Shown: positions 4,083 to 37,710 of the stretch, piece after piece
Numbering within the stretch: the first letter of the stretch is position 1
Layout of the letters: the number at the start of each line of letters is the position of its first letter
Virus record (IMG/VR): IMGVR_UViG_3300046170_000041
Coordinates: 1 to 40,075 of that record
Reading direction: 5' to 3' (one strand)
Source: a virus
Length of the DNA stretch: 40,075 nt
Notes under the pieces: generated by a model
Seen by the model: only the letters and a program-made list of their open reading frames with translations
What the model was told of the DNA's origin: nothing
The model's database searches: none
Program-made: the position numbers and the translations under genes

Positions 4083-4880
4083 TTGGTTGTAACTTTAGAA
4101 ACAGAACAGTCCCTAATTGAGGAACAACTTCAACTAGAGACTGACATGATGACAGGTGGAATACAAAGGTTTAACAAAGGGTTGAATGTGGCAGTTGAAA
4201 AGGGAAAGGAATCACACACATCACATGGAAGAGCTATAGTATCTAGGCTAGTACAAACTGTGACAGGTGCAGTTGTACAGTTCATTAAGAATCCTACTAA
4301 TACCTCACGAGATATTGCGTGGAAAAATTTAAAGGACATGGATGCAGAACAAGTTGCATACCTTGCACTTGTAACACTAGTGGATTCAATTAGTAGAAAG
4401 AATACTCTACTGTATGTAGCTAGAACTATGGGTAGTAACCTTGAGATACAAGATAGGTTAGACAAATGGATACACTCTGAAGGAGACGTAGCCAACAACA
4501 CAATCAAGCTTGCTATGAAGAAAGCATATGGAGCTAGAAGGTTTGGTCTAACTAATAAGATGAACAAGGATGGCTACAAGAATACTGAGTGGCTCAAGTC
4601 TGAACGTGTACACGTAGGGTTTAAGTTGATTGACTTAATCATACAGAGTACAGGTATCATCAAGCTTGACACACAGCAGACTGAAAGGAAGAGACGTGCA
4701 ACCTACGTTGTACCAACTCAAGATACACTTGATTGGATTAAGGCATTCAATGAGTACATGCAAGGCTCACGTCCAAGATACTTACCTTGTGTAATACCAC
4801 CTAAAGATTGGACATCAGTCAAGGGTGGAGGTTATCATGGACATGACATAGATGAACTACCTATTGTAAGGAGAAAGTAA
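4083..4880 (+). CDS. T7-type RNA polymerase, N-terminal domain part
   Basis: This 265-residue ORF matches the N-terminal domain of T7 RNA polymerase: HVGFKLIDLIIQSTGIIKLD parallels the T7 segment HVGVRCIEMLIESTGMVSLH, and IPPKDWTSVKGGGYHG parallels VPPKPWTGITGGGYWA. The start is TTG 4083 behind AAAGGGAGT; the first in-frame ATG is further in. The T7 N-terminal domain contacts the promoter and initial transcript. The ORF stops with TAA at 4878-4880, and the catalytic part begins in another frame on the last A of that stop. The break lies about where T7 passes from N-terminal domain to polymerase fold. It could be a true two-subunit enzyme or a one-base error; both are open. Confidence 0.85.
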   Translation: MVVTLETEQSLIEEQLQLETDMMTGGIQRFNKGLNVAVEKGKESHTSHGRAIVSRLVQTVTGAVVQFIKNPTNTSRDIAWKNLKDMDAEQVAYLALVTLVDSISRKNTLLYVARTMGSNLEIQDRLDKWIHSEGDVANNTIKLAMKKAYGARRFGLTNKMNKDGYKNTEWLKSERVHVGFKLIDLIIQSTGIIKLDTQQTERKRRATYVVPTQDTLDWIKAFNEYMQGSRPRYLPCVIPPKDWTSVKGGGYHGHDIDELPIVRRK

Positions 4881-6526
4881 TGGGATTAAAGACACACTTA
4901 ACTAGACTATCTGAACAAGACTTGACTGCTGAGTATGCTTGTCTCAATGCACTACAACAAACTGAGTGGAGGATTAATCAGAACGTACTCAAAGTTATAC
5001 GTCAGATGTGGGAGAGTGGGCAAGAGGTAGGTAACTTACCTGCAAGGGAGGACACACCTCTACCTAACTACCACTTCAGTAAAGAACCTAGTGAGATGAA
5101 TGAGGAAGAGAAATCTACATTCAGAATATGGTCACGTAAACGTGCTGAGATTTACTCAAGTAATAATCGTAGTGTCAGTAAACGTATACAAGTTGAACGT
5201 ACCTTACAGGTAGCTGAACAGTTCTCTAAGTATGAGAAGTTCTACTACGTATGGCAGAATGATTTCCGTTCACGTAAGTATGCAAGCAGTACATTCCTCA
5301 CACCTCAGTCAGCTGATTGGAGTAAGAGTCTACTAGAGTTTGGTTATCCTATACCTATTGATAACTGGGATGATGCAAGGTGGCTGTGTATACATGGTGC
5401 AAACCTGTATGGTAATGATAAGATAACGTTAGACAAACGTGAAGCATGGGCATGGGAGTATGTAGATGAGGCACATAGGATAGCAGACAATCCCTTTGAT
5501 AACCAAGCTTGGCTTGAGGCAGACAAACCATTCCAGTTCCTAGCTTGGTGTTACGAGATGTCAGCCCTAGCTAAGTTTGGTTGGGGTTATGAGAGTAGGT
5601 TACCTGTCTCAGCAGATGGCAGTTGCAACGGATTACAGCACCTCTCAGCTATACTAAGAGATGAGGTAGGGGGTGTAGCTACTAACTTAATATCTTCTGC
5701 TGTACCTCAAGATATTTATACACAGGTAGCTGACCAAGCTATACAACGTATACGAGAGGAGGACACAGAACTAGGTAGGAAATGTTTAGAGTTTGGTATT
5801 GATAGGAAGTTAGCTAAGAGACCTGTTATGATTGTACCTTACTCAGGTACTAAACATGCTTGTCGTGCATACATAGAAGAAGCTATCAAGGATAAGATAA
5901 AGGAAGGCACACCCAACATCTTTGGTGATGACCTATTCAATGTCACTCACTACCTAGCAGGTCACATATGGGACAGCATTAGTGGTGTGATTGTGTCAGC
6001 ACGTAAGGTGATGGACTACATTAAGAGTGTAGGAGATGTGTACTCTAACATGGGTCAACACATGGAGTGGGTCACACCTACAGGTTGGTTAGTTATGCAA
6101 CAGTATAATGAACTAGAACAGAAGAGGATAAAGACACACATCAATGGTGACATAGTATCTCTATCCTTTCCTAAAGATAAGCAAGACAAAGTTAATAAGC
6201 AGAGGACAGGGTTAGGTAGTAGTCCTAACTTCATCCATAGTTTAGATGCCTCTGCTATGACACGTACTATTAACGAAGCTACTAAGGTAGGTATTGTAGA
6301 CTTTGCTATGGTACATGACAGCTATGGTACACATAGTAGCATGATGCCACAGCTATCTGAGATACTACGTGAACAGTTCGTTAGTATGTATGAAGAGCAT
6401 GATGTTCTTGATGAACTCAGGACTCATGCAATCAAGACTCTAGGTACTGAGGATGTTCCTCTACCACCAAGTAAAGGTAACCTAGATATCCGTAACGTAT
6501 TGAAATCAGACTATTTCTTTGCTTGA
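4880..6526 (+). CDS. T7-type RNA polymerase, catalytic part
   Basis: This 548-residue ORF carries the complete polymerase core. Motif A is SADGSCNGLQHLSAILRDEV with catalytic D246. Motif B is KRPVMIVPYSG with K313 and Y321. Motif C is VHDSYGT with H479 and D480. The end, GNLDIRNVLKSDYFFA, matches the T7 C-terminus. Together with the upstream ORF the enzyme would have about 813 residues against 883 in T7. In the promoter-specificity loop T7 R746 appears kept as Arg, while N748, R756 and Q758 appear replaced (Lys, Val, Leu), in line with a promoter unlike that of T7. AAGGAGAAAGTA precedes the ATG at a good distance, so independent translation is plausible. It should transcribe the middle and late genes from the CTAAAGTTACAAC sites. 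Confidence 0.92.
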   Translation: MGLKTHLTRLSEQDLTAEYACLNALQQTEWRINQNVLKVIRQMWESGQEVGNLPAREDTPLPNYHFSKEPSEMNEEEKSTFRIWSRKRAEIYSSNNRSVSKRIQVERTLQVAEQFSKYEKFYYVWQNDFRSRKYASSTFLTPQSADWSKSLLEFGYPIPIDNWDDARWLCIHGANLYGNDKITLDKREAWAWEYVDEAHRIADNPFDNQAWLEADKPFQFLAWCYEMSALAKFGWGYESRLPVSADGSCNGLQHLSAILRDEVGGVATNLISSAVPQDIYTQVADQAIQRIREEDTELGRKCLEFGIDRKLAKRPVMIVPYSGTKHACRAYIEEAIKDKIKEGTPNIFGDDLFNVTHYLAGHIWDSISGVIVSARKVMDYIKSVGDVYSNMGQHMEWVTPTGWLVMQQYNELEQKRIKTHINGDIVSLSFPKDKQDKVNKQRTGLGSSPNFIHSLDASAMTRTINEATKVGIVDFAMVHDSYGTHSSMMPQLSEILREQFVSMYEEHDVLDELRTHAIKTLGTEDVPLPPSKGNLDIRNVLKSDYFFA

Positions 6527-20552: not shown

Positions 20553-22895
20553 TGGCACTCATCAGTCAATCTATCCCAAATCTTATAAATGGGGTATCAC
20601 AACAACCACCATCTTTAAGGCTTAGTACTCAAGCAGAACTACAAGAGAATGGTTTGTCTAATGTTGTAACAGGATTATCTAAACGTCCTAGTTCTTCACA
20701 CATAGCTAACTTAGGTACAATCTCTAACTTAGATAAAGCTTTTATACATACTATTCGTAGAGATGAGAATGAATTTTATTCTATGGTAGTAGATACTGCA
20801 GGTACTATAAGGGTGTTTGACAAAGATGGTGTATCTAAAACCGTAACTAATAATGCTGCTTCTTACCTAAGTGGTCTAACTGACCCTAACAAAGAACTAG
20901 CAGCTGTATCAATAGCAGACTCTACTTTTATTGTTAACAAGAATACTATTGTAGCTAAAGGAACTGCTACTTCTTCAAGTCGTAATCCAGAAGCTTTAGT
21001 ATATGTTAAACAAGCTGACTACTCTTCAACATATCGTGTAGTATTAACCAAAGGTGGTAATACTAGTACTGTAGAATTTGCAACAAAGTCTTCAACACAA
21101 GACACAACTTCTGAAACACAGAATGCAGAACGTGGTGCATCAACAGATTTGATTGCTACTAACTTAAATACTTTTTCTGGAACTGCTGTTAATACAACTT
21201 ACTACGAGAATATAACTGATGGTAGTGCTGTATCAGGTTTAACAGTTACACAGTATGGTAACGTCTTACATATTCAATCTACTGAATAGCACTGACTTCC
21301 AAGTAGAAGTAGGAGACTCTCATGGTGGAGACCATCTACTTGTATTTAAAGATGAGACAGCTGACTTTAAAAAGTTACCTGTAGAAGCACCAGTTAATTA
21401 TACTATTAAAGTATCAGGTGATAATCAAAAAGCTCAAGATGATTACTATGTAAAGTTTACAGATGAAGAAGTATGGAAAGAAACATTAGAGCCTAACATT
21501 CTTACCCAGTTAGATGCTTCTACAATGCCACACAAGTTAACTAAGTTAGCTAATGGTAACTTTCAGTTTGACCCTGTTACATATGATGAAAGAACTGTAG
21601 GTGATGATAACACAAACTCTTATCCTTCTTTTGTAGGTTTTACTCTAAGTGATATATTCTTCCATCGTAATAGACTAGGTGTACTAGCTGATGAGAATGT
21701 TATCTTTGCTAGAGCAGGTGAATTTACAAGCTTTGACTTCTTTCGTAAATCAGTATTAACTATAGTAGACAGTGACCCTATTGATGTAGCAGTCTCGTCT
21801 AACAAGGTTAGCATACTTAAACATGCTGTACCTTTTAACGAAGCTTTACTATTGTTCTCAGATTTAACACAGTTTAAACTTACTGCTGACCCAGTACTAA
21901 CACCTGAGACTGTTAACATTGCTAACACCACAGAGTTTGAGGCTTCACTAAGAGCTAAACCAGCACAGGTAGGTAAGTTTGTTTACTTTGCTTCTAAGAG
22001 AGGAGCATGGTCTGGCTTATGGGAATACTTTGTAGACACTGACACAGACACTAACGATGCTACAGAGGTTACAGCACATGTACCTGAGTATCTAGATGGA
22101 GAAGTCATAAACATAGAAGCTTCTTCTAATGAAGATATGATACTCGTACAAACAGATAATGACCCACAGGCTATATATGTATATAGATACTACTGGAGAG
22201 GTAGAGAAAAGCTACAAGCCTCTTGGTCACGTTGGACATTTAGTGGTGATGTTATAGGTGTTTCTTTTAACCGTGCTGATATAACTTTACTGATAAAAAG
22301 AGGTAATGATTTATATCTAGAAAGAATTAATTTATCTGTAGATGATGCTACTAACTATACTACTAATAAGTTTAGTATACACTTAGATAGAAGAGTACAA
22401 CTAGAAACAAGTGGTTTAACAACTATACCTTATACTGATGCTGGTGTAATTTATATAGACCAGACAGGTAAGATTATAGACTTAAGTGCTGTAGCAGGTA
22501 AACTAGCTAATAGTGAAGTAGTCTATGCAGGTGTACCTTTTGAATTTAAATATCAATTCTCTGAACCAGTTGTTAAAAGTGGTGACAAAGCTATAACGAC
22601 AGGTAAACTACATATAAGAAACTATGCAGTTGTTTATAGTAACACAGGTTTCTTCCAAGCAGAAGTAACACACTCTAAACGTACTCCTTATGTAAGAAAC
22701 TTTACAGGACGTATTGTAGGTGCTGCTTCTAACATTCTAAACCAAGCTGGTATTGACTCAGGTACTTATCGTTTTGGAGTACTAGGTCATGGTGATGAAA
22801 CAAGCATCGTACTAAAAAGTTCTAGTCACTTTCCTTGTGTCTTTCAATCAGCTGAATGGGAAGGGTTCTTTGTATTACGTTCTAGGAGACTCTAA
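20552..22895 (+). CDS. Tail tubular protein B, nozzle (T7 gp12-like), one frameshift
   Basis: Two frames (20552-21289 and to 22895) join at HIQSTNSTDFQVEVGDSHGG if the extra G at 21284 is removed, giving about 781 residues (794 in T7). The start, MALISQSIPNLINGVSQQPP with the following SLRLSTQAELQENG, is the classic gp12 opening. The C-terminal SAEWEGFFVLRSRRL also fits. It builds the hexameric tail nozzle to which the fibres attach. Both halves are well conserved, so the insertion is probably an error. The stop overlaps the next ATG. Confidence 0.92.
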
Positions 22896-23350
22896 TGGAA
22901 GTTTATGTTAGACAAAGTATTCAAGAAGATATAGATTACTTGGTTAACAATCTTAGACCTGAAGATAAAGAAGAAGTAGTAGCTTCTCATGGTAGTACTA
23001 AAGAAGCTCTACAAACAGGTTTTGATATATCAGAAGAATGTTGGACATTTCTAGTAAAAAAGACAGACGAGATAGCAGGTATATATGGAGTAGCCAGACA
23101 GTCTGACATGGTTGGATGTATATGGCTACTTAGTACTCCTGCTATTACAAAGGTATGGTTACCTTTTCTAAGACAGTCTAAAAAAGTAACACAACAATTA
23201 AATAAAAAATATGCTATTTTAACTAATGCAGTTGATGCAGACTATACTTTATCTATAAAATGGTTAAAGTTTTTAGGTTTTACTTTTATTAAAAAGCATG
23301 ATAAATACGGTGAAGGTGATAAACCCTTCTTAGAATTTGTGAGGATATAA
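22895..23350 (+). CDS. T7 gp13-like internal protein, GNAT-type fold
   Basis: 151 residues (138 in T7 gp13). It opens with MEVYVRQSIQEDIDYLVNNL and ends with a KWLKFLGFTFIKKHD segment, the arrangement seen in gp13/DUF2833 proteins, which resemble acetyltransferases of the GNAT fold. T7 gp13 is needed for virion assembly but is not retained as a core part. Gene order (after gp12, before gp14) supports the call. No acetyltransferase activity is implied. It starts within the previous stop (TAATG). Confidence 0.75.
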   Translation: MEVYVRQSIQEDIDYLVNNLRPEDKEEVVASHGSTKEALQTGFDISEECWTFLVKKTDEIAGIYGVARQSDMVGCIWLLSTPAITKVWLPFLRQSKKVTQQLNKKYAILTNAVDADYTLSIKWLKFLGFTFIKKHDKYGEGDKPFLEFVRI

Positions 23351-23351
23351 A

Positions 23352-23990
23352 ATGGAACCCATGACCATGCTCAGTATTGGGCAATCAGCTTTAGGTTTTC
23401 TTGAAAAGCAAAGACAAGCTAGAGAACAGCAAGCAAGATACGAAGCTAATAGGATTGCTGCAGTAGCTGCACGTGACTTAAAGATTCAAACATTAAATAA
23501 AAGAGCTATACAAGAGTCAGAAGTAATAGCAGAAGATAAACTGGCTTTGGCTCTTAAAGCATTAGAAACAAAAGAACGACAGAAAGTAGCAGCTGGTGAA
23601 GCAGGTGTAGCTGGTAAAAGTGTTAAGCAGCAGATAGCTTTAACAGAAGCCAGAGAACTTAGAGGGGTCTCAAAGTATAATGCTAGTATTAAGAACCTCC
23701 TTACACAAGTTGAACTAGAAAAAGCTGGTCTTAATGCACAAGCTATGAACCGTATTAACTCTATGCAACAAGGTCAACCACCTAGTTTAATTGGTGCAGT
23801 AGTCACTGGTATTGGTGCAGCAGCAGCAGCTGACATTAAATATGGTGATGGTAAAATGTTTGGCATTGATTTAAAAGGTGATGTTAATGTTAGTAACTTT
23901 TTTAAAAATGGTAAAACAGAACAATCTTTACCTTCTTCAGGTAATTTTGAATTTTCAAGCTACACTAAATCTTCAGGTATATTTTCATAA
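23352..23990 (+). CDS. Internal virion protein B (T7 gp14-like)
   Basis: 212 residues (196 in T7). A long amphipathic N-terminal helix region rich in Gln, Arg and Ala (EKQRQAREQQARYEANRIAA and onward), a Lys/Glu middle, and a short hydrophobic stretch at about 150-165 (LIGAVVTGIGAAAAA) that could insert into the membrane. In T7, gp14 leaves the head first and forms the outer-membrane pore for DNA entry. Gene order and composition support the same role. The start is one base after the previous stop. Confidence 0.8.
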   Translation: MEPMTMLSIGQSALGFLEKQRQAREQQARYEANRIAAVAARDLKIQTLNKRAIQESEVIAEDKLALALKALETKERQKVAAGEAGVAGKSVKQQIALTEARELRGVSKYNASIKNLLTQVELEKAGLNAQAMNRINSMQQGQPPSLIGAVVTGIGAAAAADIKYGDGKMFGIDLKGDVNVSNFFKNGKTEQSLPSSGNFEFSSYTKSSGIFS

Positions 23991-23999
23991 GAGGAACAC

Positions 24000-26900
24000 A
24001 TGGCAAAAAAAAGAACTATAGTAAAGGGACTAAATGTAGATGCCACTAACTTAGCTGGTATTTCTACTAAAGCTATGGCAAGTCCTGTTGAGACTTATGT
24101 AGCACCAGCTCAAGAAAAATCTAGTCTTTCACCTTTATCTGAATTTGTAAATGCTATAACTCCTGCTGTTCAAGCAGCTGCAGACAAACAATTAGAAGAA
24201 AAACTAAAACGTGAAAGACGTATAGAAAACTTTAACTTTGAAAAAAAACAAAACCAAGTTAAAAACGAAGCTCTGATATTTAGTGCTCAGATAAAAAATA
24301 ATTATGACCAAAATAAAGAAGCTTACCTCAACGCACCTGATGAAACAATTATAGATGATATAGATAGACATAAATCTAATTATAAAGAAAAATTAAGAGA
24401 GTCTGGTGTAGATGAACTACACATTGAAACCTATGATGCTCATATGGAAGAACGTAAAGTTCTTTTTCTAGCTGATTTAAATGAGGCTAGGAAAGCTGAC
24501 GTTATATCTAAAGAAGATAAGCAGATGGCTGATGCTGCAATAAGCATTAGTCTACAATATAAAGACAATCCAGAAAAAGGTGCTGAGTTATTACTAGATT
24601 GGTTTGAAACTCAAGCTCAGACTTATCGTACTATAGATGGTAAAGCTAACCCTAAAAGGATAGGAAATATTCTTTTAAAACTAGCAGATGATGTCAAAGA
24701 TGAGAATCCTAATAACATTTATTTAAAAGCTTTGGAAAACCTTCCACAACCTTTTTTAGATACTAAAGAAAACTTAGCTTTAGCTAGTCAACTAAGAGCT
24801 AAAAGAGATAAGTTTGGAGTTAAACAGCAGAGAGTTACCAACATCCAACAAGGTATGCAAGTAGCAGTAGATAAAGGTATAATTCCTAATTTAATGGGTT
24901 TAAAAGCTACTAAAGAAGAAAAAACTTTTGCTTTATTTAATACCACATTAACTATAGCTGGAAAAAAAGTACCTTTTGCAAAATTAAATCCTAAACAACA
25001 AGCAGATGTTTTTAAAAGCAACAGGTGTTCTTCCTGATATTGTTACAAACACAGTTGTAAATACTGTAAACCTAGTAGAATCAGGTGCTGAATTTACTAA
25101 GGAAGACAACGAAAGAATCAGACAAGGGTTTTCTCCAGTACCAAATCTTAAAAGCTGCTGGTATTCCTACAAGTCAATATCTTACTGCTGACCAAGAAAG
25201 AAAACTAGAAGCAATGGATTTATTGCTAGTTAGGGAAGCTCAACAAGGTTTATTTAAACCAAATGAAGAACTAAGTGAAGCTGACTATACTCCTGAAGTG
25301 GATTATACAACTGCTAACTATGTAGGAGCATCTAGAGATATACAAAAATTATCAGCAATTAAAAGTTTACCTGATATAGATGTGAAGACAACAAAGAAAA
25401 TTAAAAGTGAATTAGGAGACTTAGAAGACTTACCTACCTTTACTTTATTAGCTCAACAAGCTATAAGTGATTATCGTTATTTTGTAGCGATGGGTGCTAG
25501 TCCTGATGATGCTTTAGAAAGAGCAACTAACGTAGCACTAAAGAATAGTCCCTGTAGTAGAATCAGCTGGAGATAGAGAAATTAAGTATTCTTTTACTAA
25601 TCTACATGCAAGTCTTCCTTCAGGTATAAAAGACCCTAGAGAAATTATAACAAAGATGAACAAGAGTTTATCTAATAATAAAGCTTTACAGCAGTATATA
25701 AGGGATATACAAGGAATTGAAGGTGAATACGATATAGGTTTAACTTCTAATCCTGTTAATCCTACAGAAGTATATCTTACAGTTATGCAAGAAGGTAAAC
25801 CTTCAGTAAATATTTTAAGTGTACTTGATAAAGTTAAAATACTTTCAGACCCTAAGGTGTTGTATAACATGGTTGCTAAAGATTTAGTAGCAGCTAAAGA
25901 ATCTCCTGATGAGAATAGTATAGAACCTTTAATTAGCTTTGACAGTGATGTACGAAGAGAACGTACTCCTACAAAGATAGGAGAAGGTGAAATTGCTAAG
26001 AGTATTTTAAATGCACCTAAAACAGTAAAAAATATACTTAATAGTGTAGGAGATGCTATAGTTGAAGCAAGTGAATCTGATAAAGATTTTATAACTGAAG
26101 TAGAAAATTCTCCAAAGATAGGGGATAGAGAAGTTGAATTTATTAAACAACTTCCTTCAGAAATAATAAAGTTTCTTAGGTCTGATTCTGGTAGTGCCCT
26201 CTTAGATATCTTAAACCCTATTAAACCAGCAGGTGCTTCTACTTTAGACGAAACACAAGTAGGTGAGTTTACACCTAGTAACATTCCCAGTAATCAACCA
26301 ACAGGAGAACAAGTGACTATAGAAGGTAATACTACAGAAGAGAAAACTGCTAACATGATAGCAACTCAAGAAGGTTTCTCTAGCACACCTTATGCAGATG
26401 GTAAAGATAAGTCAGTAGGCTTTGGTTTCTATTTACCTGCTCTAGAAGATGATGAGAAAGCTTTGATTAAAGATGTTAACAACGTTACAAAAGAAGAAGG
26501 TGTAGCAGTACTGAAATTAAAAGTACAGAAGATTGGTAACTATCTAGAAAAAGAAATGCAAGGTTTTAGAAACTTACCAGAGGAAGCACAGTCAGCTATC
26601 ATTAGTATGGGTTATCAATTAGGTGTAACTAACATCCCAAAGACTTGGAAAAAGTTTACAGCTGCTGTTAAAGAAGCAGGACAATACGAAGAAGGTTCTC
26701 CTGAACAAGAAAAAGCTCTAGCTAAAGCTAAGTTTGAAATGTTGTACAATGTAGCTGAAGATGGTACAATTAGCCTAAATAAGTGGGCTACTCAGACCAA
26801 GAAACGTGCCTTTGAGATGGCAGAAGCTGTAGGTGAAGAGAGTAAAGAGTTTGCTAATGAAGTTTCTTCTGGTATTATGGACTACATTTTTCCTAAAGCA

Positions 26901-27630
26901 GAAGCATCTACTCTTACAAAAGGTGATACATTTAAGATAAATGAAAAACCTTCTACAGATACTATAGTTAGTATAGCAAAAGACAAGAATCCTGCAGAAA
27001 CAGCTGTTAAACTTTTAGGTGTGTCTGAAGGTAGTGATGTAGGTAGAGAAGCTATATACGGTATGTGGGAAAATATAGTAGGAGATGTCAAGCAAAAAGG
27101 TCAAAGTCTAGAAAACTTTGTTGGTAATAATTCTTGGTGTGCTCTTTTTGTAACTCAAGTACTACGTGATTCAGGTGTTGATACTTCTAAGTTTATTAAA
27201 ACTAGAGACAAGTATGACTTTGCTCGTATTAAAACTTATCAAACAGCAGGTAAATCTGTCTATAATGGTTTAGCTTCTGAAGGAAAATCAAGAGGTAGTT
27301 TTACTGATGCTCAAGCTGGTGATGTACTAGTTAAAGAACATTCACCACAAGAAAGTAAGAGAATAGGAAGTAAAGGGTCATGCTGGTATAGTTGTTAAAG
27401 TTGAAGGTAGTAAAGTTTACTTTATAGCTGGTAATCAGAATGACCAAGTGCAACTTAGTTCTTACGATATGAACGAACTATCTAATGCTATAACTATACG
27501 TAGGTTTACAGCAGATGATAACGTACCTTCTAAAGAGTTACCTTCTTTCTTAGATATGAAAGTACAAGCAAATACTAATAAGTTTAAGAACTTTATGACA
27601 AGTGCTTATAATTGGGTTACTAATAAGTAG
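24000..27630 (+). CDS. Internal core protein with lysozyme and CHAP-like domains (gp15 position), four frameshifts
   Basis: Four single-base indels, in TTTTT (25009-25013), GGG (25126-25128), CCC (25550-25552) and GGG (27375-27377), split one protein of about 1,209 residues. The N-terminal two thirds are helical and gp15-like by place. At about 785-900 is a T4-lysozyme-like domain: EGFSSTPYADGKDKSVGFGF keeps the catalytic Glu and Asp at T4 spacing (E11, D20), has Ser for T26 one residue short, and Phe for H31. At about 1020-1160 is a CHAP/NlpC-like amidase domain: NSWCALFV (Cys about 1048), GHAGIVV (His) and AGNQNDQV (Asn), resembling the TIGR02594 family. In T7 gp15 (747 aa) has no enzyme. 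This protein probably digests peptidoglycan during DNA entry. Confidence 0.8.
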
Positions 27631-27647
27631 ATAAAAAGGAAATGTAA

Positions 27648-30600
27648 ATGTCTCAAGAAATGTTGTTAAAAGACTTAGGTCTAGAGTCAGTAGTAGCTGA
27701 AAAATCTACTATACCTATAGTTAATACTATTCAAGAAAGTGTAGTATTAAACCAACAACTAAAGATGGCAGAACAAAAAGAGACACTAGGCTTTTGGGAA
27801 AGTGTAGCTGTAGGCTTAAAAGAAGATGGTCTAGTGTCTGCTATACAAGACCACGCAGATAAACTTGAAGTGGTAAGTGATGTACCTATAACTAACTTTA
27901 CTCCTGAGTTAATTAACACATTAACAGATGGGTTACAAACTGATGCAGCTATAGATGTACTAGAGAATGCTAGTGCTTATGGTTTTAACACAGCTATGAA
28001 GCAACGAAAGATTAACTTAGCTACTCAGAAAAACTTAGCAGACTTAGAGGCAGCAGGTTGGAAGGGTACTACAGGTAGAATATTTGCTATGATGTTTGAC
28101 CCAGCTGAATGGGCAATCATAGCTGGTACTACTGCTTTAGCTTCAGCTACAACTAGCCCAATAGGAGGAGCAGCTGCTCTTAGTGCAGGTGTTGTCAAAA
28201 GAGCTTATGATGTTAAACGAGCTATTAAGATTGGTGCTGTAGTAGGTGCAAGTGAGAATGCTGCTTTTGAAGCTATCAGAAAGACGTTAGGTTTAACATA
28301 GATATGAATGATGTGTTCATAGCAGGAGGAGCAGGAGCAGTACTAGGTGGTGGTTTAAATGCAGGTATAACAGCTTTTAGAAAAGCAGGACAACGTGCAG
28401 CTATTGATACTAAGGTTAGATTAGGTCAAAAACTTACACCACAAGAATCAGTATTTTATGAAACTTTTAATGAAGGAGTACTTGGTAATAAAATAATAGA
28501 TAAAGAATTAAGTAAGCCTGAATTTGTTGAACCTAGTACGTTAAATGTAAATAGACATACAAAACCTGCTACACTTGAAGAAATGAGACAAACACCTATG
28601 CAAGCTGGTTACAGTCTTTTTGGATTACGTAATATGTTATCAGTGGGTGCAAGGATGATGAACCATAAACTAGCTCCTTTTAGATTTTTTGGTAATAAAA
28701 TGGGTATGAATGTTGCAGGATATGCTGATAGTAGTAAAGCTACTAATCCAGATTCAGTAACAGAAGTTATGGGTAGATTACAAGGTCAATATCGTTTCAA
28801 ACTTGCAGGTACACTTCCTAGAGAAAGAGCCAAGTTTATTAAAAGAACAGGGCTTACAGAAGAAGAATTTAACACAGCTTTATCACGTTACTTAAGAGGT
28901 ATTGATAAAAATGTAGCTCCTGAGGTAGTAGAAATAGGTAAGATAGCTAGAAGTGTTCTAGATGATTTAGCTGATTTAGGAGTAAAAGCAGATGTTGTAG
29001 GTCTTACAAGAAAACAAATAGAGAATAATCCTGATTATTTAATACGTTTGTTTAATGACCTTAAGGTTAAAAACTTAAGAGATAAGTTTGATGACGAAGT
29101 AATCGTTGACTTAATTGAAGAAGCTATACGTAGAGGACAGCCTAACATAGAAGATTCAGTTTTAAAAACTTTAACTAAAAAAGGTAGAACAAAAGGAAAG
29201 ACAGACGAAGAGCTTTTTGATATGGTTAATGACTACATACGAAAGTTTGCTAGAGGTTATACTAACAGTATCATAAGTTCAAAGTTTAGAAAGTCAGGTA
29301 TAACAGATACTGCTCCAATGGTTAGAGAAGATTTAGAAGCAGTGTTAAAGGCTGAAAAAGTTGTTGATATAGATGGAGTCTCAAGAAGAGTTTTTGATGA
29401 TGATGAAGTAGATGATATCATAGATATACTTACACAATCTACAAAAACTAAAGGATTTAAACGTGCTCAGTCTCGTGTAGTCTTAAATGAAGGCACTGTA
29501 ATTACAGCTACTAATAAAAACGGAGATATGGAAGAGTTAAGATTTACTGATTTACTAGAAGAAGATGGTGAGCAACTTGTAAATGCTTACATATTTCAAA
29601 TGTCAGGTGCTATAGGTTTAGCTAGAAATGGTATAAACACTAACGTAAGAGGTACTGACTTTAAGGAGTATGTAATAGGAAGTATTCAAAGAGAGGCAGA
29701 ACTTCAAAATCTTGCTAAAGATGAATATCAAGCAGGTTTAGATGCAGTAGAGTTTATGTATGATGGCATCACTGGTAGATTAGGAAACAGAAGTGAGACT
29801 CAGACAGTACATGACCTTAACATAGCTTTACGAGCTTGGTCTTTTGCTGTTAACATGGGTATGTCAGGCATGTCCTCTTTAATGGAATTGACTAACGTTA
29901 TGATGGAATATAGTTTCATGACTTTACTTAAGTCTGTTCCTCAGTATAAACAACTTTTAACTGATTTAAGTAAACCTAATGCTGACCCTAATTTAATTTC
30001 AGAAGCAGTTCAACTTTTTGGATTAGGTAATGAAATTGATTTAGCTAAGTGGACAGCTGTTACACGTTTTGATTCAGAAGATGTAGGAACTACTATAACT
30101 ACTGCAACTGGAAATAAGATAGGTAGAGCTACAGAAAAGTTTGCTTATGCTTCTCAAAAACATGTTGCTTATCTTTCAGGTTTAACAGGAGTTACACAGT
30201 TCTTACGTAGGATGTCTATGTTACATTTTACTAATGAGTTTGCTTTAGCTGCTGCAAAAGGTAAGTTACCTTTCTCTAAGATTAAAAGACAACAACTTGG
30301 TATATCTGATGAGATGGGTGCTAGAATAGTAAACACTTTAAACAATCCTAAAATTGTTACAAAGAATCCAAATGGAACTGTTAAGAACCTAAACATTGAA
30401 AAGTGGGATGAAGAAGTAAGAGAAGCTTTTGCTTCTATAGGTCATAGAGATGCTAGAACAAATGTTCAAGAATCTGATTTATCTACAAGTAACAGATTGT
30501 TAAAGTCTACTCAAATAGGTAGGTCAATGTTTCAGTTTTTAAACTTTACCTTTTCATCTATGGAACAACAAACTCAACGTTTAGCTGTTAGAACAATGAA

Positions 30601-31015
30601 TGGAGATGCTGGAGCTGTAGCTAAGTTATTAACTGCTTCACTAGGTATGGGTGCTCTTATGTACGCAGCTAGAGTACAATTAAATGCTGCTGGACGTAGT
30701 GATAGAGAGGAATATATTGAGGAACGTATGACAACTGCTAATCTTCTTCAAGGAGCAGCTTCACAGATAGGTATGCTTTCAATATTTAACTACATAACAC
30801 AAATGACTACAGGTGTGTTGAACGGTAACTCCTATGCTATAACTCCTCCTCTTGCTTCTTTGTTAGTCAACGGAGGTTCAACTATTAAGAACTTATTTGA
30901 TGATGAAGATGCTACAGAATCTGAGTGGAGAAAGGGTTTGAGACTTTTTCCTTATCAATCTTTATACGGAGCTAGGCAGATAATAAATGCTACAGCTAAT
31001 GAATTTGCTAACTAA
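27648..31015 (+). CDS. Internal virion protein D (T7 gp16-like), one frameshift
   Basis: Two frames (27648-28301 and 28304-31015) form one protein of about 1,122 residues if one base lost near 28298 is restored (TLGLT..DMNDVFIAGGAGA). T7 gp16 has 1,318 residues and an N-terminal transglycosylase; no such motif is seen here, which fits with the enzyme domains lying in the preceding protein. There are hydrophobic, Gly/Ala-rich stretches around 165-185 and 222-240 and near 775-790. The C-terminal LFPYQSLYGARQIINATANE resembles other gp16-type ends. It would form the inner-membrane part of the ejection channel. It is followed directly by promoter copy 3. Confidence 0.8.
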
Positions 31016-31050: not shown

Positions 31051-33999
31051 ATGCCATTATCATATGAAAACTATACTGGGGACAACGTCACAGACACGTT
31101 TAACATCCCCTTTACGTACACTGCGACTAGTGAGATAAGTGTTACAGTTGATGGGGTAGCTCAAACAGGTTTGACTTTCCCTTCATCTTCTCAGGTACAA
31201 TTAACCAGTGCTCCTGCTAGTAGTACTGTCGTACAAGTTAGACGTACAACAGACTTAGCATCAAGAGCTGTAGACTTTGCATCTGGTTCAGTATTGACTG
31301 AAGAAGACTTAGACAATGCTAACATACAAATCTTTCACTCATCGCAAGAAGCTGTTGACTTAACTGACGATACTATCCAAGAAGATATAGATAGTAAATG
31401 GGATGCAGAAAGCAAAGTCATTAAGAATGTAGCTAATCCTACAAATGCTCAAGATGCTGCAACAAAGGATTACCTAGAAAATACTTGGTTAACTCCTGCT
31501 GATAAAGCTCAGTTAAATTCTTTGAATACAACTAACCTTAACACTGTTGCAACTAACATTTCAGATGTTAATGATGTGGCAGCTGATGAAGCTGACATAG
31601 GAATAGTAGCAACTAGCATAACTGATGTAAATACATTAGCTCCTGTTGTAACAGATATAGCAACACTTGCTGACATAACAGATGGTACTGTTGCTACTAA
31701 TGCTATACAAACTGTAGCAGATATACAAGGTAACGTAACTACAGTTGCAGGTATAGAAAATGATGTGACTACAGTTGCAGGTCAAACAACTAATTTACAG
31801 AATGTAACAGATAACTTAACTGCAATACAAAATGCTAGTACAAATGCAACAAATGCAGCACAATCTGCTACTGATGCCCAAACTGCTCAAGGTTTAGCAG
31901 AGGATGCACAAGCAGCAGCAGAAGCTGCCCTTGATAATTTTGATGATAGATTTTTAGGAGCAAAAGCAACAGACCCAGTATTAGACAATGATGGTAATGC
32001 TTTACTTGATGGTGCTTTGTACTTTGACACAACTAACGACATAATGAAAGTGTATGATTTAACCAATACAACTTGGAGACAGTTAACACTTACATCAGCC
32101 AATCAAGCAAATGTAAATACAGTTGCAGGGCAAATAAGTCCTACTAATAATATAGCTACAGTAGCAGAGGATAGTGCTGATATAGGCACAGTAGCAGGAT
32201 TGAGTACAGATATTCAAGCTCTAGCTGATATAGAAGATGGAACAACTGCAACTAATGCAATATCAAATGTTGGTGGTTCTATAGCCAACGTAAATACAGT
32301 GGCAAGCAACCTTGCTTCAGTAAATAACTTTGGTGAAGTTTATCGTATTGCATCTTCAGCACCTACTACATCATTAGATATAGGTGACTTATACTTTGAT
32401 ACTACAGCTAATGAGTTAAAGGTATACAAGTCAAGTGGTTGGGCAGCAGCAGGTTCTACAGTTAACGGAACTTCAGCTAGGTTTCACTATGATATATCAG
32501 GTACTCCAACAAGTGTAACTGGAGCAGATGCTAATGGCAGTACACTAGCTTATGATGCAGGTTATGTAGATGTGTACGTCAATGGTGTTCGTATGTCAGA
32601 TGCTGATATTACTATTACCAGTGGTGACACAGTAACATTTACAGAAGCTCTAGCTGATGGAGATGAGGTAGACATAGTTGCATATGGTACATTTAGTGTA
32701 GCTACTTTAGATGCAAGTAACTTATCCAGTGGCACAGTGCCTGATGCAAGGATAACTGGTGCATACACAGGCATAACTAACCTTACAATGTCAGGTGACC
32801 TAACTGTAGACACAAACACACTTTATGTAGACTCAGCTAACAATAGGGTTGGTGTGGGAACTGTGAGTCCAAGTGACAATCTACATTTAGCAGAATCTGG
32901 AGCAACAAGTAGCTTTATAAGATTTAGTAATTCTAATGTACCTAATGGTTGGTCTTTAGGTTCACATAATAGTGGTCGTTTTCAATTAACACAAAATGGC
33001 GTTGCAGATAGAATAATAGTTGATTCATCAGGCAACTTGTTGGTGGGGAAAACTTCTACTGGAGCAGAATTTCCAGGGATAACTCTTGGCTCTTCTGGGT
33101 ATGCTTCTTTTACTAGAGATAGCAATATTTCTTTATTTTTAAACAGAGAAACAAATGATGGAACTATTGTAGAGTTTAGGAAAGACAATACTGCTGTAGG
33201 AAGTATTGGCACACAAGGTGGTACTTTAGAGGTTGGTTCTGGTGATGTTTATTTACAATTTAATGGCACAAATGATTGGATAAAACCAGTTGATGGTTCT
33301 GGTAGCAACAAACCTAATGTTGACTTAGGAACATCAGGTGCAAGATTCAAAGACCTCTACCTATCAGGTGGTGTAAATATTAAAGGTTCTACACCAAAGA
33401 TTACACTAGAACACTCTAACGAAAATGGAACTGCACAGATATATACAACTGCACAATCTGCAATAATTTTAGATGCTGACCCTGATAACACAGATAATGG
33501 TACACCTATTCAATTTAAAATTGATGGAAATGAAGTAGGTAGATTTGACTCTGGTGGTCGTTTTATAGCTCCATATGGTGTAACATTAGGAACTTCAGCA
33601 GGTACTTATAGTGCTAGTAATACTCTTGATGACTATGAAGAGGGAACTTGGCAACCTACTGTTGCTAATGGAACTTTAAACTATCAAACTGCAAATTATA
33701 TTAAAATAGGTAAAAGAGTTACTGTATCTGCAAAATTAGAAACTTTTAGTGACAGGTCAACAGCAGGTTCAATTACAATTACTAATTTACCTTTTGCTAG
33801 AGATACTGCTAAAGACGAAGTTGCTGGTGGAAGTGCAATGTGGTCATATGTTAATCAAGAAAATAATGTTGTGTACATAGCAACTAATGGTTTGCAATTT
33901 TATAAAAGTCAAAGCGGAGATTTTGACAGTCTTAAACATAATGATTTAAACAGTTCTAGCTCACAGGTTTATCTTTTTGCAACATATATTTCAACATAA
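31051..33999 (+). CDS. Tail fibre with T7 gp17-type N-terminus
   Basis: 982 residues. The first 105 residues match the T7 tail fibre N-terminal domain (Phage_T7_tail): YTGDNVTDTFNIPFTYTATS, then VQVRRTTDLASR and LTEEDLDNANIQIFHSSQEA. This part docks to the tail. Residues of about 130-440 are repeats of the type ITDVNTVA / IGTVAG, probably a long triple-stranded shaft. The distal part is beta-rich, with LDDYEEGTWQPT near 866, a motif common in marine fibre proteins, before the receptor-binding tip. It decides host attachment. There is no S74 chaperone at its C-terminus; that domain lies in the second fibre gene. Confidence 0.88.
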   Translation: MPLSYENYTGDNVTDTFNIPFTYTATSEISVTVDGVAQTGLTFPSSSQVQLTSAPASSTVVQVRRTTDLASRAVDFASGSVLTEEDLDNANIQIFHSSQEAVDLTDDTIQEDIDSKWDAESKVIKNVANPTNAQDAATKDYLENTWLTPADKAQLNSLNTTNLNTVATNISDVNDVAADEADIGIVATSITDVNTLAPVVTDIATLADITDGTVATNAIQTVADIQGNVTTVAGIENDVTTVAGQTTNLQNVTDNLTAIQNASTNATNAAQSATDAQTAQGLAEDAQAAAEAALDNFDDRFLGAKATDPVLDNDGNALLDGALYFDTTNDIMKVYDLTNTTWRQLTLTSANQANVNTVAGQISPTNNIATVAEDSADIGTVAGLSTDIQALADIEDGTTATNAISNVGGSIANVNTVASNLASVNNFGEVYRIASSAPTTSLDIGDLYFDTTANELKVYKSSGWAAAGSTVNGTSARFHYDISGTPTSVTGADANGSTLAYDAGYVDVYVNGVRMSDADITITSGDTVTFTEALADGDEVDIVAYGTFSVATLDASNLSSGTVPDARITGAYTGITNLTMSGDLTVDTNTLYVDSANNRVGVGTVSPSDNLHLAESGATSSFIRFSNSNVPNGWSLGSHNSGRFQLTQNGVADRIIVDSSGNLLVGKTSTGAEFPGITLGSSGYASFTRDSNISLFLNRETNDGTIVEFRKDNTAVGSIGTQGGTLEVGSGDVYLQFNGTNDWIKPVDGSGSNKPNVDLGTSGARFKDLYLSGGVNIKGSTPKITLEHSNENGTAQIYTTAQSAIILDADPDNTDNGTPIQFKIDGNEVGRFDSGGRFIAPYGVTLGTSAGTYSASNTLDDYEEGTWQPTVANGTLNYQTANYIKIGKRVTVSAKLETFSDRSTAGSITITNLPFARDTAKDEVAGGSAMWSYVNQENNVVYIATNGLQFYKSQSGDFDSLKHNDLNSSSSQVYLFATYIST

Positions 34000-36964: not shown

Positions 36965-37074
36965 TAGATTTTTATTTAAGTATGTCTAAATTCTTTGGTA
37001 AGATTAATGCTTACTTCTACAACAAACATGTTAAAGCTTTAAGAAGGAAACAGATTAAGGAACGTACAAGATGA
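36961..37074 (+). CDS. Basic peptide ahead of holin, 37 aa
   Basis: A 37-codon frame overlapping the previous stop (ATGA at 36961-36964) and the holin start (ATGA at 37071-37074). The product is basic (AYFYNKHVKALRRKQIKERT) with an aromatic N-terminus. The overlaps on both sides suggest a translated peptide or a coupling device that carries ribosomes to the holin gene. Function unknown. Confidence 0.45.
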   Translation: MIDFYLSMSKFFGKINAYFYNKHVKALRRKQIKERTR

Positions 37075-37466
37075 TACAAGCATTAATAGCACCAGTTGCT
37101 TCACTGTTAGACAAGTTTATCCCTGATGCAGATACTAAGCAAAAGATTGCCCATGAGATTGCAACAATGTCAGAGAAACATGCACAGGAGTTAGCAAAAG
37201 GTCAACTAGAGATTAACAAAGAAGAAGCCAAGCACAGGTCACTGTTTGTTGCAGGTTGGAGACCCTTTCTGGGTTGGATACTAGCTGCTGCAATGGGGTG
37301 GCACTTTGTATTTGCACCTGCTACAATGTTTGTTTGTGCTTACTTTAACGTACCCATACCAGCTTTACCAGTGTTTGACATGGATAGTCTTATGACTGTA
37401 CTACTTGGTATGCTTGGTTTAGGTGGATTACGTACAGCAGAGAAGATAAAAGGTATAACTAAATAA
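37071..37466 (+). CDS. Holin, 3-TM superfamily
   Basis: 131 residues. A short hydrophobic N-terminus, then a charged helix, then the motif VAGWRPFLGWILAAAMGWHF typical of the 3-TM holin superfamily (GTA_holin_3TM type), followed by a second hydrophobic stretch (VFAPATMFVCAYF) and a Gly/Leu-rich third (VLLGMLGLGGL). It would permeabilise the inner membrane at lysis. No separate endolysin gene is seen near it. The stop shares a base with the next ATG. Confidence 0.8.
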   Translation: MIQALIAPVASLLDKFIPDADTKQKIAHEIATMSEKHAQELAKGQLEINKEEAKHRSLFVAGWRPFLGWILAAAMGWHFVFAPATMFVCAYFNVPIPALPVFDMDSLMTVLLGMLGLGGLRTAEKIKGITK

Positions 37467-37564
37467 TGGAAGTTGAGATAATAAGTATATTCTTACAAAT
37501 ATTAACACTACTAGCTGTCTGTGCAAACACAGCTATTAACATAGTATATAGGTTGAAAAAATGA
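37466..37564 (+). CDS. Single-pass membrane peptide, 32 aa
   Basis: Starts within the holin stop (TAATG) and ends overlapping the next ATG (37561). It is one hydrophobic helix, SIFLQILTLLAVCANTAINI, with a basic end (YRLKK), so the C-terminus probably faces the cytoplasm. It could be a holin regulator (antiholin-like) or a lysis accessory, judged by place and size only. The cysteine lacks a proper lipobox, so an Rz1 role is unlikely. Confidence 0.45.
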   Translation: MEVEIISIFLQILTLLAVCANTAINIVYRLKK

Positions 37565-37710
37565 GTCTTTATGAAAACATTAACAGAAGAAAGAAGCTTG
37601 GTATATCTAGACCCAAGTCAAAGAGTACAGTATCAGCTAAGTCATACGCAAACATGAAAGCAGGTTTTCCTAAGAAAAAGAAGACAGATAAGTACAAGAA
37701 GAAAACATAA
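37561..37710 (+). CDS. Basic protein upstream of terminase, 49 aa
   Basis: A 49-residue very basic protein: MSLYENINRRKKLGISRPKS followed by Ser/Lys-rich sequence and a KKKKTDKYKKKT tail. Closely similar short proteins (LYENIN..KK pattern) lie beside terminase or lysis genes in many marine phages. The charge suggests nucleic-acid binding, perhaps in packaging. It overlaps both neighbours. Confidence 0.6.
   Translation: MSLYENINRRKKLGISRPKSKSTVSAKSYANMKAGFPKKKKTDKYKKKT

Follow-up and report, generated by a model that had tools for sequence, protein, structure and literature searches.

Does the gene that takes the place of T7 gene 15 in the virus studied here encode a core protein with two different cell-wall hydrolases, and if so, would they act when the phage enters its host or when it leaves? 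The window, which is the whole stretch of DNA analysed, spans the 40,075 bases of the IMG/VR virus record IMGVR_UViG_3300046170_000041. Profile searches found T7-like content along it: a single-subunit RNA polymerase, a gp2.5-like SSB, endonuclease, primase/helicase, DNA polymerase and exonuclease, and also portal, scaffold, tail tubes, internal proteins, a gp17-type tail fibre, holin, terS and terL. The nearest matches of terL, at below 60% identity, are marine Autographiviridae with Roseobacter and Pelagibacter hosts together with their uncultured relatives, and megablast of the window against isolated phages gave no match. There is thus no close isolate, and from the marine Autographiviridae around terL the host is likely a Gram-negative, marine bacterium.

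The gene of interest lies at 24000-27630 on the plus strand, exactly as the earlier note had placed it. It is preceded by the genes of a gp13-position internal virion protein (22895-23350, plus strand; PHROG 308, 4e-38) and a gp14-like internal virion protein (23352-23990, plus strand; PF24072, 3.4e-16), and followed by those of a gp16-like internal virion protein (27648-31015, plus strand) and a tail fibre with the T7 gp17 N-terminal domain (31051-33999, plus strand; PF03906, 4.6e-33). This order is that of T7, and the gene between the gp14 and gp16 genes occupies the gp15 place. By synteny and by comparison with intact relatives, it is read here as one gene for an internal (ejection) protein of about 1,208 codons, with the frame read through the breaks that are treated below.

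The protein begins with a long N-terminal body (24000-26220, plus strand) in which no enzyme family was detected. The body has no significant Pfam or PHROG match, and its profile gave no significant alignment by hhalign to T7 gp15, phiKMV gp36 or SP6 gp36. It does match, at E 5.6e-7, the gp15-position protein of the Roseobacter phage CRP-125, which is 568 aa long. Neither the lysozyme profile nor the CHAP profile described below scores against that protein, which makes both enzymes look as if they had been added to a body of the gp15 position. The label 'gp15' itself comes from position and the CRP-125 match only.

The gp16-like neighbour differs from its T7 counterpart at the end where the T7 enzyme sits. 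When the intact gp16 of the relative L004 was compared with PHROG 342, the match started only at profile position 207, and a Pfam SLT search of the same protein gave no match at E ≤ 1, while the gp16 of a Limnohabitans phage (L032), used as a positive control, gave SLT at 9e-17. By these profiles, the gp16-like protein has lost the T7 transglycosylase domain, as the earlier note had supposed.

Behind the body is a T4-type lysozyme domain (26325-26831, plus strand), assigned from PHROG 7, PF00959 in a relative, a fold model and profile alignments. The PHROG 7 endolysin family matches the window's own domain at 1.7e-6. The curated PF00959 cut-off of 22.3 bits is exceeded by the close relative L007 (28 bits) and also by G004, G006 and G009 at the same place in the gene; the window copy itself, 85% identical to L007 across the domain, scores below it. 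The predicted catalytic Glu (26370-26372) and Asp (26397-26399; E16 and D25 of the domain), nine residues apart, are invariant in 32 aligned sequences, and the T4-type signature W..QT..RA appears close to the domain end. A structure model of the window's domain had a mean pLDDT of 88.5, and its top PDB matches were T4 lysozyme chains and T4-lysozyme fusions with a probability of 1.00, a TM score of about 0.6 and E values of 0.003-0.015, which are supportive though not decisive alone. The domain profile also aligns with the lysozyme at the C-terminus of phiKMV gp36 (8e-8) and with SP6 gp36 (2e-6), and about 55 distinct relatives have a lysozyme in the same gene. Thus, the T4-lysozyme-like domain proposed from the sequence alone holds up.

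Two departures from T4 lysozyme had been taken as a hint of changed activity. At the Thr26 place stands a Ser (26412-26414, plus strand), one residue short; it is nearly invariant, with Ala in a few sequences. phiKMV gp36 and SP6 gp36 have the identical spacing, D-x4-Ser-Val-Gly, and the lysozyme of phiKMV gp36 is active (PMC5380687). Since the active phiKMV gp36 and SP6 gp36 share it, the Ser spacing is no sign of altered activity, and the stronger reading, that this Ser or the missing residue marks an inactive enzyme, is ruled out by the same two proteins. The second departure is real: the His31 equivalent is Phe or Leu throughout the lysozyme family studied. In T4 lysozyme, His31 has a structural rather than a catalytic role.

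The C-terminal part, about 26949-27627 on the plus strand, is a CHAP-type (TIGR02594-like) domain of the Cys-His-Asn kind, recognised by profiles on relatives and by invariant residues; the predicted catalytic positions are Cys 27138-27140, His 27379-27381 and Asn 27433-27435 (plus strand). It matches PHROG 1259 at 1.9e-16. TIGR02594 gave its best score with the relative L009 (1.2e-13, 51.5 bits), below the curated cut-off of 70.55 bits, and 1e-7, again below that cut-off, with L004, which is 91% identical to the window. By these scores the domain is related to the curated TIGR02594 subfamily and lies outside its membership. With PF05257, on the other hand, L009 exceeds the cut-off (28.4 vs 26 bits; E 2.3e-6 with the whole protein, 3.1e-7 with the isolated domain), as do G001, G005 and G010, whereas the window-type L004 stays below at 24 vs 26. 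The CHAP/NlpC-like assignment of the earlier note therefore stood, with PF05257 above its cut-off in L009 and the Cys, His and Asn invariant in 17 sequences.

Whether this second domain still cuts is the alternative that weighs most. It could be a non-catalytic or wall-binding remnant, leaving the lysozyme as the sole cutter; window-type sequences score under the curated cut-offs, many relatives do without the domain, and the structure model has a pLDDT of 53, a low-confidence value. In that model the Cys starts a helix that is followed by a sheet bearing the His and Asn, and its best folds include the CHAP enzymes Ly7917, phi812 hub domain and Gsp amidase, although weakly (E 0.05-0.5). Sequence profiles of the lysozyme and CHAP domains gave nothing significant against PDB, which reflects alignments of too little diversity and not a lack of homology. 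Against a remnant stand the Pfam CHAP score of L009 and the invariance of C103, H183 and N201 in 17 sequences that diverge down to 34% identity, within the motifs Trp-Cys-Ala, GH-V/A-G (His) and GN (Asn). We therefore regard a remnant as unlikely; for a CHAP/TIGR02594-type enzyme such as this, the most likely target is an amide bond, either in the stem peptide or in the cross-bridge.

Both domains are preceded by a similar short stretch. An Ala-x-Ala motif is found ahead of the lysozyme (PAGAST; 26229-26237, plus strand) and between the lysozyme and CHAP domains (PKAEAST; 26898-26906, plus strand), and motifs of the type Ala-x-Ala-[S/A/D/E] recur at both junctions even where the sequences cannot otherwise be aligned. 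The motif precedes the C-terminal module in 7 of 8 clusters, with about 2 expected, and the lysozyme in 6 of 12, with 1.4 expected. Signal-peptidase sites are not favoured as an explanation, as no hydrophobic stretch precedes the motifs.

Taken as a whole, the gene quite probably encodes a T7-like core (ejection) protein in the gp15 position with two peptidoglycan hydrolases in series, which would act at entry. By analogy with T7, in which core packaging, ejection and periplasmic tube formation have been described (PMC8954989), and with its relatives, we infer that the gp15-position protein would be packaged as part of the internal core and, on ejection, would reach the periplasm before the DNA and build the periplasmic tube there. 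The T4-type lysozyme would cut the glycan strand and the CHAP domain would add an amide-bond cut, so that the wall is opened locally and the tube and gp16 can reach the inner membrane. At entry, the lysozyme would then stand in for the transglycosylase of gp16, and the CHAP domain would perhaps adapt this step to differences in peptidoglycan cross-linking between hosts or growth states.

The lysis region of the window raises another possibility. Its holin (37071-37463; PHROG 3427) is directly followed by terS, with a gap at 37464-37709 and no endolysin between them. The same spacing of about 244 nt, without room for an endolysin, is found in five further contigs (L107-L111) with holins at least 95% identical, whereas most of the relatives in which the holin beside this terS is less similar have a phage-lysozyme (PF00959) or M15-peptidase gene there (L115, L217, L183). 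No separate PF00959 gene matched in the window, and no lysin was recognised among its small ORFs in the PHROG matches listed (best 25 families). It is thus conceivable that lysis is a further, or even the main, task of the gp15-position protein: the holin would open the inner membrane, unpackaged copies would release the progeny, and the endolysin would have been lost. However, G001 has both the CHAP domain and a separate endolysin, and G004 lacks CHAP with a lysis region identical to that of the window; an endolysin that went unrecognised or lies on a missing contig end would also explain the gap, and the position and context of the gene are those of an entry protein. We consider a lysis role quite improbable. 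A combined version, in which one injected core protein works at both ends, opening the wall at entry by its lysozyme, alone or together with CHAP, and serving as endolysin through its unpackaged copies, the separate gene thereby having been deleted, is given only a slim chance. The narrower idea that CHAP compensates for a lost endolysin found no support, as the few genomes showing both features gave no association.

In the window, the coding frames across 24000-27630 run 0, 1, 2, 0, 1 in turn, which amounts to four shifts. Alignment to intact relatives resolved every break into one surplus base on the window side; the four lie near 25.02, 25.13, 25.55 and 27.38 kb. CHAP-less relatives end before the 27.38 kb break and so do not cover that one, which hits the catalytic His motif of the CHAP domain. 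Single-ORF versions were found in L004 (1203 aa), L005 (1253 aa) and L009 (1124 aa), and intact ORFs also in L036, L046 and many more relatives. The four one-base indels and the single protein of about 1,209 residues deduced earlier thus agree with the relatives and with the product of about 1,208 aa read through here. The RNA polymerase gene (4083-6526) is likewise present as two ORFs in the window.

The breaks could be real, so that the gene of the window phage is decaying or split. All four fall within a single gene, and the sister contig L002 (99.2% DNA identity) has one break in common with the window and another of its own. On the other side, single-base breaks also hit two other genes of this contig, those for gp12 and gp16 (near 21.28 and 28.28 kb, once each), protein identity to L002 and L004 around the breaks is mostly 97-100%, and the relatives mentioned above have the ORF intact. 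Because single-base breaks occur in those other genes too, contig errors are the simplest explanation and probably account for the four breaks, and a decaying gene is very unlikely. Because of the break that L002 shares and the one it has alone, one break may nevertheless be real in the phage. The fragmented window copy could also be read as an assembly artefact in which a gp15-like gene and a separate lysin gene downstream of it only look fused, but this has practically no chance, being already contradicted by the whole protein in one ORF on independent contigs.

With the two-hydrolase entry protein as the preferred reading, the relatives show which of its parts are fixed. In 55 distinct relatives, the lysozyme is followed by nothing, by CHAP, or by an unrelated domain of about 220 aa; in the 51 for which the state was placed on a gp16 tree, the module was absent in 25, CHAP in 19 and the unrelated domain in 7, and the tree, made by a quick method, required at least 11 changes. 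The alternative domain of about 220 aa, with Y.DY ... [DN]FN motifs, occurs in L012, L018, L063, L081 and L087-L089. Pfam gave nothing significant on it, and so a colicin-M-like assignment that was considered for it was dropped. A near-identical allele is found in L011, which is 99% identical to the window in the N-terminal part of gp15 and 94-100% in gp16 and is missing window positions 26837-27631. Judged from these comparisons, recombination has added, removed or replaced the CHAP domain as an accessory module, while the lysozyme is the constant part.

The Roseobacter phages CRP-403 and CRP-804 have a free-standing CHAP/TIGR02594 gene, annotated as hypothetical, 3′ of the tail fibre gene (L028 9001-9633, L031 7980-8615). 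The CHAP profile matches these proteins at E 2e-19 and 4e-17, respectively, and a gene of this type is a possible source of the fused CHAP domain.

Exchange appears to extend beyond the module. G004, which has no CHAP, matches the window at 99-100% identity across gp10-gp13, holin, terS and terL; in gp14-gp16 the identity drops to 45-90%. Because near-identity outside goes with divergence in gp14-gp16, the ejection-protein block looks like a recombination cassette exchanged between close genomes. Seen from window positions 22895-31015, G004 (L010, L102, L105) has the same capsid, tail tube, holin and terminase, with gp14-gp16 diverging strongly.

How much of this is new can be judged from known systems. 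The window shares with T7 the gene order and the inferred roles of gp15 and gp16 (periplasmic tube and inner-membrane channel). In T7, however, the transglycosylase sits at the gp16 N-terminus and gp15 has no enzyme; in the window the gp16-like protein is without it, and two other enzymes are found on the gp15-position protein. For K1E and K1-5, lysozyme activity of gp15-like proteins has been described as a case of domain swapping across ejection proteins (PMC8954989), and SP6 gp36, K1-5 gp38 and phiKMV gp36 are listed as virion lysins (PMC5380687). The core proteins of SP6 (gp36) and K1-5/K1E (gp35-type) likewise combine the gp15 position with a T4-type lysozyme, and in SP6 gp36, as in the window family, the Ser falls one residue short of T26, but they have a single hydrolase and no CHAP, and the N-terminal body of SP6 gp36 is not detectably similar. 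The injection needle protein phiKMV gp36 also carries a homologous C-terminal lysozyme in the gp15 position; it differs in having 898 aa with one lytic domain at the extreme C-terminus, no CHAP, and a His kept at the H31 place. Marine T7-like phages show another layout, in which the protein directly preceding the gp16-like one has a pesticin-type lysozyme (PF16754) as its N-terminal domain (L027 6691-8598, 2.8e-40; L026 5930-8011, 1.1e-38).

The Cys-His-Asn domain is the same as in TIGR02594/CHAP proteins such as those of CRP-403 and CRP-804 and the Limestone/Vi01-type hub gp5. In CRP-403 and CRP-804 it stands alone and in the Limestone/Vi01 type it is in a myovirus baseplate hub, whereas the window has it fused behind the lysozyme of a podovirus core protein. 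Virion proteins that combine two different lytic domains are also known, namely phi11 gp49, HydH5 and SP-beta CwlP, which, unlike the window protein, belong to other protein families and to phages of Gram-positive hosts; a 2017 review knew two-lytic-domain virion lysins only from such phages (PMC5380687). No later case of two lytic domains in a podovirus of Gram-negative hosts was found in the open-access literature.

The earlier note had proposed that the wall-cutting function moved to another core protein and doubled. The two hydrolases and the gp16 without a transglycosylase stand, but the relocation had already been published for SP6, K1-5/K1E and phiKMV, and a wall cutter on a gp15-position protein is part of a described, already known mosaicism. 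What is new is the second, different hydrolase and the exchange of the C-terminal module, the doubling being without a precedent found. The Gram-negative phage cases found in the literature have one cutter each, whereas the window family would have two in series that differ in chemistry. Natural pairs with and without CHAP that are otherwise near-identical also occur in it, the window with L011 and the window with G004 (99-100% in gp10-13, holin and terL). Such pairs let one ask what a phage gains from a second wall cutter at entry, and whether the ejection block serves as a unit of exchange between phages.
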